Assembly: GCA_017881055.1 (NCBI GenBank)
Contig: JADGRF010000101.1
Location: 31,304 to 95,303, forward strand
Direction of reading: 5' to 3'
DNA from: Sandaracinaceae bacterium
Lineage (GTDB): Bacteria; Myxococcota_A; Polyangia; Polyangiales; JAFGIB01
DNA: 64,000 nucleotides
The position numbers were made by a program, and so were the translations under genes. Shown here one piece after another: positions 58,407-63,996 of the stretch. Position 1 is the first letter of the stretch; each line of letters starts with the position of its first letter. A model generated the notes under the pieces. It made no database searches and was not told where the DNA came from. It worked only from the letters and a program-made list of their open reading frames with translations.

Positions 58407-59750
58407 TCAGCTACCGTTGCGCTCGTTGCGCCACAGGTCTTCCGTGGTTTGGCGCACGCGGATCACTTCGAAGCCGGCGCCATCCACGAGCACTTCGGCC
58501 GCGAACGGGCGGCTGTTGTACGTGCTGCCCATGACGGCGCCGTAGGCACCGGCGCCGCGGATCGCAAGCAAGTCGCCGCGCGCCACTTCCGGCAGGTTGC
58601 GGTCGTGCGCGAAGAAGTCGCCGGACTCGCAGACGGGACCGACCACGTCGGCGGGCGTCTCGGGCGCACCGGCTTTGGTCGCGACGGGCACGATGGCATG
58701 GTATGCGCGATACAGGGCAGGGCGGATCAGCTCGGTCATCGCGGCATCCACGATCACGAAGCGTTTCTTGCTCTGTTCCTTCACGTACACGACACGTGTC
58801 AGCAGCACACCTGAGTCGCCGACGATTGAACGGCCAGGCTCGACGATCAGCTGGGCACCGAGCTTGTCGGCGCCGCCTCTTCGCATGCTGTCGATGATGG
58901 CGCGACCGAATATCGCGCGGCTCTGCGCGTCGCGCTCCTCGTTGCCGTACAGGATCGGCCAGCCGCCGCCGGCGTCGAGCGTGGTGATCTTCGCGCCGGC
59001 TGCTGCGCACTCGCACGCAAACGCGGCAGTGATGGCCACAGCGTCACCGATTGGTTCCGGCGAGAGCACCATCGAGCCGATGTGACAGGCTACGCCTTCG
59101 AGGTGCAGGTGCTTGCTGGCGATGATCCGCGGCAAGAGCTTGCGCGCGACGTCGAGCTCGAGACCGAACTTGGAGTTGTGCAGACCCGTGGCGATGTACG
59201 GATGCGTTGCGGCATCGACGTTCGGGTTCACGCGTAGCGCGATCTTGGCTTGTACGCCGAGCTCGGCGGCGACCGCTTCGATGGCGTCGATCTCAGGCGC
59301 GCTCTCGACGTGCAGCGAGCGGATGTTGGCTTCCAACGCCGCGCGAATCTCGGCGTCGGTCTTGCCTACGCCACTGAATACGATCTTCGCAGGCGAGAAG
59401 CCGGCTTTCAGCGCGCGCGCAAGCTCGCCGCCGGACACGATGTCGGCACCGGCGCCGGCACGCGCCAGGCGCGATAGGATGGCGAGGTTCGAGTTGGCTT
59501 TGACCGCGTACGCCACCATGTGCGGCACATCGGACAGCGCAGCGTCGATCCCGCGATACGCTTCGTCGATGGCTGCGGCGCTGTACACGTACGTGGGCGT
59601 GCCTACGTGCTCCGCAATTTCGTCGAGTGGCACCGAGTCCGCGTGCAGCACGCCTTCGTGCGAGACGAAGTGCTTCGAAGCGGGGACGCGTTGGTGGCCG
59701 GATGCGGGTTGATCAGGTGCTGATTGTTTCGGTGCTGCCACGGGACTCAC
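58407..59750 (-). CDS. lysA: Diaminopimelate decarboxylase
   Basis: PTYVYSAAAIDEAYRGI, YAVKANSNLAIL, GGGWPI, EPGRSIVGDSGVLLTRV, GPVCESGDFFAHDR, GAYGAVMGSTYNSRP. Start overlaps the argH stop by 4 bp. Confidence 0.96.
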   Translation of the reverse strand: MSPVAAPKQSAPDQPASGHQRVPASKHFVSHEGVLHADSVPLDEIAEHVGTPTYVYSAAAIDEAYRGIDAALSDVPHMVAYAVKANSNLAILSRLARAGAGADIVSGGELARALKAGFSPAKIVFSGVGKTDAEIRAALEANIRSLHVESAPEIDAIEAVAAELGVQAKIALRVNPNVDAATHPYIATGLHNSKFGLELDVARKLLPRIIASKHLHLEGVACHIGSMVLSPEPIGDAVAITAAFACECAAAGAKITTLDAGGGWPILYGNEERDAQSRAIFGRAIIDSMRRGGADKLGAQLIVEPGRSIVGDSGVLLTRVVYVKEQSKKRFVIVDAAMTELIRPALYRAYHAIVPVATKAGAPETPADVVGPVCESGDFFAHDRNLPEVARGDLLAIRGAGAYGAVMGSTYNSRPFAAEVLVDGAGFEVIRVRQTTEDLWRNERNGS

Positions 59751-61180
59751 GGCTCCGTACGAACTGAAAAACGAGTGGCGAGAGCGGCGAGATCCAAGCC
59801 TCGCGTTTGTAGGCGCTGGCGGAGGGCTGTGATTTCGGCGAGCACCATGCTGCGCGCGGGACCGCCAGGCAAGTTGCGTCGCTCGATTGCCGTCTCGGGA
59901 TCGAGCGCGCGGTAGACGTCTTGTTCGAAGGCCGGGTGCTCGGCCTTGAGCTCGTCGAGCGAGAGGCCGGAGAGCGTCGTGCCCTTGTCGAGTGCGCGTC
60001 GCACGAGGCGCCCCGCCACGTGGTGCGCATTGCGGAAGGGCACGCCCTTGCTCGCGAGATAGTCGGCAACCTCGGTGGCGTCGACGAAGCCTTCGCCGAG
60101 CGCTTTATGCATGCGCGCGGCATCGAAGCGCGCGCTGCCGATCGAGCCCGCGAGCACCGTGAGCGACGCATCGACCGTGTCGAACGCGTCGAACACGGGC
60201 GGCTTGTCTTCCTGCATGTCGCGGTTGTACGCGAGCGGTAGACCCTTGAGCATGACCATGAGCGCGACCAAGTCGCCGACCACGCGTCCGCACTTGCCGC
60301 GCACCAGCTCGGCCATGTCGGGGTTCTTCTTCTGCGGCATCATCGACGAGCCGGTCGTGAAGGCGTCGCTCATCTGCACGAAGCCGAACTCCTGCGAGCT
60401 CCAGAGCACGAGCTCCTCGGCGATGCGCGACAGGTGGATCGCGCAGTTGGCGAGGCACGCGACCGTCTCCACCAAGAAGTCGCGGTCGCCCACGGCATCG
60501 AGCGAGTTGCGGGTCACGCCATCGAAGCCGAGCTCTTTCGCGGTCATCTCGCGATCGAGCGGGAAGGTAGTCGCGGCCAGCGCACCCGAGCCCAGCGGGG
60601 AGAGGTTCATGCGACGTGCGGCGTCGAGCAGCCGCGAGCGATCGCGCTCGAGCATTTCGCTCCAGGCGAGTACGTGGTGCGCGAGTCGAACCGGCTGCGC
60701 GCGCTGCAGGTGCGTGTAGCCGGGCATCAGCACTTCCACGGTACTTCGCGCGCGCAACGCGAGCACGCCCAGCATCTGGTCGATGCGGCCGGTCGTGGCG
60801 ATGCAAGCGTCGCGCGTCCACATGCGCATGTCGGTCGCGACCTGGTCGTTGCGGCTGCGCGCTGTGTGCAGGCGTGCACCGGCTTCGCCGATGCGCTCGG
60901 TGAGCGTGGCCTCGAGGTTCATGTGCACGTCTTCGCGTGCCGGGTCCCAGACCAGCGTGCCGGCCTCGCCTTCTTTCGCGAGTTGGCTGAGCCCGCCGAC
61001 GATGCGCTCCACGTCTTCATTGGAGATGATGCCGCGTGCGCCGAGCATGCGCGCGTGGGCGATCGAGCCGCGGATGTCCTGTGGGTACAGACGCTTGTCG
61101 ACATCTACGCTGGCGCTGAAGGCCGCCGCTTGCGCATCGAGGTCTTGATCGAATCGTCCGCCCCAGCTCTTGTCACTCAT
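59747..61180 (-). CDS. argH: Argininosuccinate lyase
   Basis: WGGRFDQ; LHTARSRNDQVATD; GYTHLQRAQPVRLAHH; GSSMMPQKKNPDMAELVRGKCGRV. Confidence 0.97.
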   Translation of the reverse strand: MSDKSWGGRFDQDLDAQAAAFSASVDVDKRLYPQDIRGSIAHARMLGARGIISNEDVERIVGGLSQLAKEGEAGTLVWDPAREDVHMNLEATLTERIGEAGARLHTARSRNDQVATDMRMWTRDACIATTGRIDQMLGVLALRARSTVEVLMPGYTHLQRAQPVRLAHHVLAWSEMLERDRSRLLDAARRMNLSPLGSGALAATTFPLDREMTAKELGFDGVTRNSLDAVGDRDFLVETVACLANCAIHLSRIAEELVLWSSQEFGFVQMSDAFTTGSSMMPQKKNPDMAELVRGKCGRVVGDLVALMVMLKGLPLAYNRDMQEDKPPVFDAFDTVDASLTVLAGSIGSARFDAARMHKALGEGFVDATEVADYLASKGVPFRNAHHVAGRLVRRALDKGTTLSGLSLDELKAEHPAFEQDVYRALDPETAIERRNLPGGPARSMVLAEITALRQRLQTRGLDLAALATRFSVRTEP

Positions 61181-61226: not shown

Positions 61227-63503
61227 TCACGTCCAGGCTGGAAGCCTTAGCGCGATTCGATGCAGAAGTCGCGCGCCCGCCCGCACCGCGTACGCGTCCA
61301 CGCACAGGCTGAAGGCCGCTGCGACTGCGGGTTCGAGTAAGCCCGTCGCGGCTGCTGCGACTACCGCCGCGAACCCGCCGAGACAAAACAGCGCGGCCGA
61401 GAGCGCGGCGTCGCGCGCGGCGTTCGCAATCCAGAGCGCGGCCGCGGCATCACGCACGTCCTCGCTGACCAGCGCGACGGCTTTCTCGCCGGCGGGGCCA
61501 CCGGCAGCGCCGAGCGCGATCCCGACATCGGCGGCCGAGAGCGCGGCGTCGTCTTCGATCGGGTAGCCGATCACAGCGACGCGCGCGCCGGCCTCGTGCA
61601 GGCTGCGCACCTCGTGGCCGCGCTCCTCGGGCAACAGCTCAGCCTTCACGTGCGCGATGTCGAGGCCTGCGGCGAGCTCTTCGATTGGGCGGCGCTGCGC
61701 GCCCGTCAGGAGCACCACCTCGAGGTCCATGTCGAACATGCGCTGAATGGCCGCGCGTGCGCCGACGCGCAGATGATCTTGCAGCGTGATCACGGCGCGC
61801 ACGCGGCCTGCGACTGCGACGAAGATCGCGGTGCGACCGGCGGACTCGGCGCGCGCGGCGTCGGCATCCGCGGTGGCCACGCTTACGCCCTGATCGAGCA
61901 GCAGGCGACGGCTGCCGATCACGACCTCTTCGCCGTTGGGCGCGATCGCCGTCACGCCGCGGCCGGGCACGTTGACCGCACGCCGGATCTCGAGCGCCGG
62001 CAAGCTCTGCGTGCTGGCGAACGCCGCGATCGCGCGCGCGATCGGGTGCTCGCCCACGGCGTGCTCAGCGGCAGCTGCCAGCGCGAGCACCTCGGCGCGT
62101 TCCAAGAGGCTCGCGCCGTCGCCCATGAAGTGCACCTCGACGACCTCGGGCTTGCCCTCGGTGAGCGTGCGGTTGGGCGCCATCGCCACCAGACTGATGT
62201 GCCCCGTGAGATCGAGCGCGCTGCCGTGTTGAAAGATGATGCCGCGCGCGCCGGCGCTCGCTGCGCCCGCCAAAAACGTCCACTCCGTGCTGCGCTTGAG
62301 CGCGAGCAGTGGGCCGGCGATCAAGACGGCGCTGGCCGCTGCGAGCGGCGAAGTTAGACCACGGCTACCGGCGAGCGCGATCGCGGCGAACGCCAGCGCG
62401 ATCACGGAGGGCCCACCGAAGCGCGTGATTTCGGCGGCGACGCGCACGAGCGGTGCGGCGTCGCGTTCCGAGGCGCGACCGAAGCGTGCGATGCGCACCA
62501 GGCCCCGGTCGTCGCCGACGCGCGTCGCCAGCACGCGCAGTGCGCCGTCGATTACGGTCGCGCCGGCAAGCACCGCGTCGCCAGGCTTTCGCGGCACGCT
62601 CGTGGTGGCGCCCGGGTACGGCAGGATGTTGGCCTCGCCGGCTTGCACGACGCCATCGACAGCGAGCACCTGGCCCTTCAGCGCGATCACTTCTTCGCCG
62701 GTGCGCACCTTGCTCGCATCGCAGCGCGTCGTCGCGACCGCGAACGGATCGCCGCTCTCTTTCACGGGCACGTAGACTTGGCTGGGCAGGCGCGCGAGCA
62801 GATCGGTCACGGCGCGCTCGACCGGCTCGCGCGTCTCGGCGTCGAAGTAGGCGCGCGCGAGCATGGCGACCGAGGCGAGCGCGGCGCCGCACAAGCCGAG
62901 ACTGCCGCCGCTGCCGACGACCACGCCTTGGTACGCGGCGAGCGCGGCGCCGATCGCGCCGATCGGGCCGAGCAGCCACGCCAGCACGCCCACGTCGCGG
63001 ATCGACGGCGCGGCCAGGCGCAACGCCATCAACGATGCGATGCCGCTGGCGGCGGCAGAGGCCAGCGCGAGCTCGGGGCGCGGGAACAGGCCGAACAGCA
63101 CGGCGACACCCGCGGCGCTGCAGCCCGCGGACAGCCACCGCATTGCGTCCGGCGGGACGGCCTTGCGCTCACCCAGACCTGCGGCGTGCCCAGGCGTGAA
63201 CACGGCTTGCGAGACGGGTGTGCGGTGTCGGGGAACGCCGGTGGGCGGTGTGCGACCGGGCAGGGGATGCGCACCGCTGCCCGTGGTCGGTCGTTTGCGG
63301 CTGCGGACACCGCGCCGGAACTCGCGCACGCACTCTTCGCCGCACAGAAAGCGCAGGCCGTCATCGAAGGCCAACACGTTCGGTGCGCGCAGCGGATCGA
63401 CGTCGGCACCGCAGGCGGCACAGGCTTGGGGCGCGAGCAGGAGCCGATCCGCGGGTACTACCGCGACGGGCACGAGCGCACGCGTGGGGGCCTTGGCTGG
63501 CAT
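61227..63503 (-). CDS. P-type (heavy-metal, P1B-like) ATPase homolog with degenerate catalytic motifs and N-terminal TRASH/zinc-finger-like Cys motif
   Basis: Overall P-type layout with PGA (for TGE), AGPLLALKRST (for CPC), MAPNRTLTEGKPEV (for DKTGTLT), EHPIARAI (HP retained), LLTGA (for TGD), GYPIEDDAALSAADVGIALG (for GDGINDAPAL). N-terminus CAACG...FLCGEEC. Start ATG 63503. Confidence 0.88.
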   Translation of the reverse strand: MPAKAPTRALVPVAVVPADRLLLAPQACAACGADVDPLRAPNVLAFDDGLRFLCGEECVREFRRGVRSRKRPTTGSGAHPLPGRTPPTGVPRHRTPVSQAVFTPGHAAGLGERKAVPPDAMRWLSAGCSAAGVAVLFGLFPRPELALASAAASGIASLMALRLAAPSIRDVGVLAWLLGPIGAIGAALAAYQGVVVGSGGSLGLCGAALASVAMLARAYFDAETREPVERAVTDLLARLPSQVYVPVKESGDPFAVATTRCDASKVRTGEEVIALKGQVLAVDGVVQAGEANILPYPGATTSVPRKPGDAVLAGATVIDGALRVLATRVGDDRGLVRIARFGRASERDAAPLVRVAAEITRFGGPSVIALAFAAIALAGSRGLTSPLAAASAVLIAGPLLALKRSTEWTFLAGAASAGARGIIFQHGSALDLTGHISLVAMAPNRTLTEGKPEVVEVHFMGDGASLLERAEVLALAAAAEHAVGEHPIARAIAAFASTQSLPALEIRRAVNVPGRGVTAIAPNGEEVVIGSRRLLLDQGVSVATADADAARAESAGRTAIFVAVAGRVRAVITLQDHLRVGARAAIQRMFDMDLEVVLLTGAQRRPIEELAAGLDIAHVKAELLPEERGHEVRSLHEAGARVAVIGYPIEDDAALSAADVGIALGAAGGPAGEKAVALVSEDVRDAAAALWIANAARDAALSAALFCLGGFAAVVAAAATGLLEPAVAAAFSLCVDAYAVRAGARLLHRIALRLPAWT

Positions 63504-63585: not shown

Positions 63586-63996
63586 ATGCGCGCTCGCCAG
63601 CTACTCGGCTTTCTCGCGTTCTCCGTGTTAGTGACCGCCTGCGCGGGCGTGGGCTCCGAAATCAAGCCCGAGCAGTGGCGGATACGTCTGCGCGCCGCCA
63701 TGGAGCAAGAGGTACCCACACGCGAACGGCGCGACGAGCTGTCGCGTCTGCTGGTCGACGCGACCGAGCACGGCGCGCTCGATCGACTGACCCGACCCGA
63801 AGTGCAGGCCGCGTTTGGTCCGGGGCTCGCCTGCGACGCGTATGCGCTGTGCGACAAGCAGGGCTTTCAGGGTAGCGATTGGTATTACCCAATCGGCCAC
63901 ACCGACAGCACGAAGATCAAGCAGCTGCCGATCTTGATCGTCGGCTTCGACCCGCAGCAGCGCGTGTCGCGCGTGTATGCGTTGCACACGCATTGA
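63586..63996 (+). CDS. Small hypothetical lipoprotein
   Basis: MRARQLLGFLAFSVLVTACAG lipobox; complete ORF. Confidence 0.7.
   Translation: MRARQLLGFLAFSVLVTACAGVGSEIKPEQWRIRLRAAMEQEVPTRERRDELSRLLVDATEHGALDRLTRPEVQAAFGPGLACDAYALCDKQGFQGSDWYYPIGHTDSTKIKQLPILIVGFDPQQRVSRVYALHTH

Follow-up and report, generated by a model that had tools for sequence, protein, structure and literature searches.

A family of P1B-type ATPase homologues has, judging from its motifs, almost certainly lost the ability to pump and appears to have been retained by selection as a pseudoenzyme. One member is encoded in the window, by which we mean the whole 64,000-nucleotide stretch of DNA analysed. By sequence, its product is a P1B-type (CopA-like) ATPase homologue. 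A first-pass annotation had described an intact 758-aa frame here, and the frame is indeed open throughout (Table 1). A Pfam search of the protein returned PF00122 (E1-E2_ATPase, E 3e-14) and PF00702 (HAD hydrolase, E 3e-11), and CopA is the nearest sequence of solved structure. The match to TIGR01525 (ATPase-IB_hvy; E=6e-71) reaches 240 bits, which lies under the NCBIfam cut-off of 346. The protein consists of a single P-type unit with no fused active P-type ATPase.

The predicted structure is that of a pump. AlphaFold2 returned a complete P1B fold for the window protein, modelled with the family alignment (pLDDT 90.4, pTM 0.83), and for a distant member from family f12 (pLDDT 87.4, pTM 0.76), so that the fold check proposed at the outset gave the full P1B architecture in two distant members. 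The top PDB match of both models in Foldseek was CopA 7r0g (TM 0.62-0.65 on the query). The models run from a small N-terminal module through a disordered linker, four helices, the A domain, M3-M4 and the P and N domains to M5-M6; M3-M4 show a break near Pro398, and all eight predicted transmembrane helices are retained. By homology and by this predicted fold (A, P and N domains, transmembrane layout) the window protein is classed as P1B, without the residues that mark an active pump.

Searching 97 related genomes at the protein level and translating the loci yielded 72 members of the pseudo family, one per genome. These were compared with 31 canonical P1B pumps, drawn mostly from these genomes and in a few cases from other named records. 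The pumps had been picked by their DKTG and the contrast between pseudo and active sequences therefore lies in other motifs; all 31 also carry the Glu of TGE/SGE and GDGxND. The catalytic Asp is present in 31/31 pumps and in 0/72 family members, and the TGE Glu likewise in 31/31 and 0/72 (Ala in 57). The first Asp of GDG is replaced by Arg in 40 and by His in 16 of the 72 members, while the last Asp is retained in 69/72. The Lys of LPxxK survives in 2/72, with Arg in 64/72. The pump residues Tyr-Asn (YN) of M5 and Met-Ser (MxxSS) of M6 are missing, and the M6 serine position is acidic (D/E) in 46/72. DKTG, CPC and GDGxND occur nowhere in any of the 72 member sequences, and no intermediates between pseudo and active forms were found among the 72 members and 31 pumps. 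The family thus shares with the P1B heavy-metal ATPases (CopA/ZntA; TIGR01525, PF00122 plus HAD PF00702) the domain order, the predicted 7r0g-like fold, the eight predicted helices, the N-domain E/HP/GxG residues and an N-terminal YHS domain as in same-genome pumps, but differs from them in lacking the phospho-Asp, TGE, CPC, the GDG Asp, the M5 Tyr-Asn and the M6 Met-Ser, and in a score of 240 against 346 bits.

Table 1. Features of the window discussed in the text, with window positions.
Feature	Position	Strand	Basis or remark
Pseudo-P1B-ATPase gene	61227..63503	-	758 aa, ORF uninterrupted
CxxC-x22-CxxxC module, residues 24-66, YHS/TRASH-like, putative metal-binding	63306..63434	-	Cys conservation, HHalign
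A (actuator) domain, residues 241-345	62469..62783	-	PF00122 match; fold kept, TGE to PGA
PGA for TGE, residues 297-299	62607-62615	-	alignment to pumps
GPLL in M4 for CPC, residues 397-400	62304..62315	-	alignment; CPC absent from every member
APNRT for DKTGT, P-domain phosphorylation loop, residues 442-446	62166..62180	-	alignment
N domain with retained nucleotide-site residues	61779..62147	-	E480, H486-P487, G514/G516, G530, R532
H486-P487 (HP)	62043-62048	-	N-domain alignment
G514/G516 (GxG)	61956-61964	-	N-domain alignment
TGA for TGD, residues 600-602	61698..61706	-	alignment to pumps
GYPIED for GDGIND, residues 646-651	61551..61568	-	first Asp lost, last Asp (D651) kept
argH (argininosuccinate lyase)	59747..61180	-	next gene downstream, 46 bp gap
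lysA (diaminopimelate decarboxylase)	58407..59750	-	overlaps argH end by 4 bp

The first-pass annotation had read the window protein as carrying APNRT for DKTGT, PGA for TGE, no CPC and TGA for TGD, all of which alignment to the pumps bears out, and as keeping HP and ADVGIALG, which the alignment locates together with GxG. Its reading of GDGIND as GYPIED holds as well, but the motif occupies 61551-61568 and not 61548-61571, three bases inward at each end. That nearly all motifs are lost is also correct, except that GDGIND retains its last Asp and that loss of the TGD Asp is not common to the family: TGA is private to the window protein among its close kin (two congeners have TGD), and the Asp is kept in 53/72 members, mostly as SGD. 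In M4 of the window protein both Cys of CPC are gone, with a one-residue register ambiguity over whether Pro398 corresponds to the CPC proline. Frameshift or motif misalignment is ruled out by the lack of any motif elsewhere in any member together with the confident fold. The possibility that a profile alignment would find the true motifs elsewhere fails because no member contains DKTG, CPC or GDGxND.

What replaced the lost residues is itself patterned. The column of the DKT Thr holds Arg or His in 63/72 members and that of the GDG Asp a basic residue in 57/72; 54/72 are basic at both. Basic side chains at the old Mg2+/phosphate site may stand in for the metal ion. At the column of the lost phospho-Asp (window residue 442) Cys is found in 39, Ser in 12 and Leu in 9 of 72; the frequent Cys may point to new chemistry or merely to a preference for small residues.

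One branch parts the pseudo from the active sequences (SH-aLRT 100 in a quick search with the motif columns masked), and the pseudo subtree broadly matches family labels, as vertical descent from a group ancestor would predict. Pairwise NG86 dN/dS, which is approximate at this high GC and divergence, was 0.06-0.29 in 19/20 pseudo pairs and 0.48 in the remaining one, similar to or below the values of active pumps (0.23-0.41, at larger distances). Frames are open at full length across the order-wide tree. Recent decay in one genome is ruled out, as the family has no intact member, and multiple independent losses are unneeded because a single branch separates the two groups. The first-pass annotation had argued for selection on a non-pumping role and against recent decay, for which close orthologues with intact DKTGT/GDGIND would have spoken. 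There are none among the 72 members, and its view is strengthened by the universal loss of the catalytic Asp, the fully supported branch and the mostly purifying dN/dS that it had suggested calculating. Degeneration conserved in orthologues and purifying selection mark the family as a putatively functional, selected pseudoenzyme.

Prevalence was judged from the 97 relatives and from 144 genomes of the class. Among the latter, scores of ~300 bits and more are confined to one order, which we infer to be Polyangiales (Myxococcota) from named counterparts (Sandaracinaceae, Sandaracinus, Polyangiaceae, Myxococcota MAGs). The best scores outside it were at most 256 bits, and five of these out-of-order best matches, on examination, were normal pumps. 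Simple searches could miss very diverged members, so an apparent absence elsewhere in the order is uncertain. L154 (G020), L079 (G082), L070 (G062) and L052 (G052) are very diverged members of the pseudo family. In L062 (G051) and L070 (G062) the frame is open far upstream, with 1332 and >1000 codons between stops; N-terminal extensions or fusions are possible, as is a plain high-GC open frame.

Conservation, measured as weighted column information in bits, is redistributed between the pseudo and active forms. The N domain is about equally conserved (2.46 vs 2.52 bits, pseudo vs active), as is the N-terminal YHS-like module (2.41 vs 2.30). The P domain falls to 2.63-2.73 vs 3.18-3.24 and the A domain to 2.29 vs 3.02. 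M4 shows the largest drop (1.97 vs 3.55); M1 has 1.78 vs 2.95, and helices other than M4 have 1.66-2.36 vs 2.25-3.23. These values indicate relaxed constraint on the transport path alongside persistence of nucleotide-site residues (E480, HP, GxG, G530). A passive channel or carrier, whose membrane domain would still conduct a solute such as an amino acid or polyamine with no ATP-driven cycle, would fit the eight retained helices, the acidic residue at the M6 serine position in 46/72 and the amino-acid gene context described below. We consider it quite unlikely, since no folded part is less conserved than the transmembrane helices, among which M4 has lost most, and these helices hold no polar residue that is invariant across the family. 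The relaxed membrane domain, the motif residues that differ between members and the occurrence in 72/97 related genomes could also be expected of a slowly decaying, functionless relic that persists by chance. This is extremely improbable given full-length frames over order-wide divergence, dN/dS well below one and invariant residues that are private to the family and not common to pumps (R507 and R532 in 72/72, E553 and D591 in 71/72).

The nucleotide-contact residues of the window protein's N domain are presumably those of CopA, and we assigned them by reference to CopA N-domain structures. Across the 72 members they are kept as follows: E480 in 61, H486 in 49, P487 in 66, G514 and G516 in 71 each, G530 and R532 in 72 each. 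Since 23/72 have another residue in place of the HP His, some members may bind nucleotide less well or no longer.

At the N-terminus, C28, C31, C54 and R39 are present in 66/72 members and C58 in 65/72; the remainder mostly lack the region. HHalign matched the module to the YHS domain that genuine P1B pumps of the same genomes carry at the corresponding place (probability 95.8%, E 8e-9). Weak matches to PF24461 (DUF7576, unknown function) were found in 23/48 members and to a TRASH model in 3. The first-pass annotation had likened CAACG...FLCGEEC to a TRASH/zinc-ribbon metal-sensing module, which agrees with the YHS/TRASH-like sequence and with these four Cys, which members that have the region conserve. 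The match to same-genome pumps suggests that the ancestor of the pseudo family was a YHS-bearing CopA. YHS/TRASH domains bind Cd or, in the YHS adenylyl cyclase of M. phlei, are copper-activated (PMC4626032). The module shares with the cyclase YHS domain four metal-ligand positions and the CxxC...CxxxC layout, but the sequence match is remote and the first ligand of the pseudo family is Cys, as in L24e TRASH, and not Asp.

The roles of metal sensor, chaperone or regulatory partner proposed in the first-pass annotation are compatible with this conserved putative metal site. In one form of this idea the YHS-like domain would load or inhibit an intact CopA-type pump whose gene lies elsewhere, and the dead body would serve as a dimerisation platform. 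The conserved four-Cys module and the proposal, from biochemical data, that YHS/TRASH domains are copper sensors (PMC4626032) favour it, as do the intact YHS-bearing P1B pumps of the same genomes; the search for an active P1B ATPase elsewhere in the window's genome that had been suggested found a separate intact pump (L071) on another contig. We nevertheless regard such a partnership as unlikely, because the recurrent neighbours include no recognised P1B pump or other metal gene; the linked genes are arg genes and a YkuD transpeptidase.

The window carries the pseudo-ATPase, argH and lysA in this order, all on the minus strand, the latter two being genes that we take to be argH and lysA from their own sequence and family knowledge. 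Neighbours were counted by hand over 56 distinct genomes with usable flanks; the contig profile scan used a 22-row family alignment. An arginine gene adjoins in 40/56 distinct genomes, in the two arrangements PSEU-argH-lysA and argD(-argF)-PSEU. The neighbour is argH in 22 of the 56, and argD or argD-argF lies immediately upstream in 18 (family f12, where Pfam identified a class-III aminotransferase and an ornithine carbamoyltransferase). The flanks examined in family f6 and some Sandaracinaceae genomes hold no adjacent arginine gene. The two arginine contexts fall on two sides of the tree and may be due either to function or to an arg cluster in the ancestor. In two sister genomes, at L117 (G008) and L118/L099 (G027), the pseudo-ATPase lies beside argH but in reverse orientation, as would follow from an in-place inversion.

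A YkuD L,D-transpeptidase gene adjoins the pseudo-ATPase in about 18/56 distinct genomes, and copper inhibition of LD-transpeptidases is announced in the title of Peters et al. 2018 (cited in PMC12729407). Both points favour an envelope factor that acts with this enzyme, for example one that protects or gates it when copper is present. This is very unlikely, as f12, g8 and most of f6 showed no YkuD gene next to the pseudo-ATPase, and the constrained domains are cytosolic whereas transpeptidases are periplasmic. At L082:6214-7884 and about 18 related loci the YkuD gene beside the pseudo-ATPase is often followed by an Extensin-like_C gene.

The reading that we favour, with moderate confidence, is a membrane-anchored pseudopump that senses or regulates by binding metal and/or nucleotide; that its role is regulatory we regard as probable. 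Three features missed by the first-pass annotation, the conserved nucleotide site, the relaxed path through the membrane and the linkage to arginine genes, point to such a regulator over a metal-pump partner. A single loss of phosphorylation and metal translocation in a CopA-like pump would have preceded the diversification of the inferred Polyangiales, after which selection would have kept the protein. Anchored in the inner membrane, it would bind a transition metal through the four-Cys domain and/or nucleotide through the N domain and switch conformation without hydrolysis, as a sensor/regulator or a scaffold for partner proteins. Because of gene linkage alone, its likeliest partners would be ArgH, ArgD/ArgF or the adjacent cell-wall L,D-transpeptidase, and the arginine enzymes as regulatory target are a guess on the same basis. 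The bolder version, a dead-pump family rebuilt to sense both transition metal (YHS-like module) and adenine nucleotide (N domain) and to control the adjacent arginine/lysine biosynthetic enzymes, is possible but doubtful. Against the regulator, the linkage may have survived from an older gene order in the ancestor, as the f6 protein has no arginine genes nearby, and the window protein is one of six members without a basic residue at either column of the old Mg2+ site, where most relatives carry them.

Among kinases and proteases, pseudoenzymes are a familiar phenomenon. To our knowledge, the nearest precedent for a dead P-type unit is FUPA 24 (CtpH/CtpI), whose N-terminal type I half Chan et al. 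are said to have described in 2010 as degenerate. In FUPA 24 an active pump carries the dead part as a fusion, whereas the pseudo family stands alone, monophyletic and order-wide. FUPA family 24 is given as mycobacterial CtpH/CtpI, P-type ATPase homologues (PMC3573892). The literature searched held no stand-alone conserved pseudo-P-type ATPase, which is weak evidence as most subscription journals lay outside its reach, and no paper pairing 'P-type ATPase' with 'pseudoenzyme'; a 2023 review of the superfamily does not mention 'inactive' or pseudo-pumps. The family offers a natural experiment on the capabilities of a P-type scaffold that is no longer phosphorylated, as well as an unexpected tie of a pump fold to arginine biosynthesis. 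It is also a warning for annotation: these genes match heavy-metal ATPase models, yet their products cannot, by the known cycle, be expected to pump. In the window, a divergent 136-aa ORF with a lipoprotein-type signal (LLGFLAFSVLVTAC) occupies 63586-63996 (+) and starts 82 bp from the pseudo-ATPase start.
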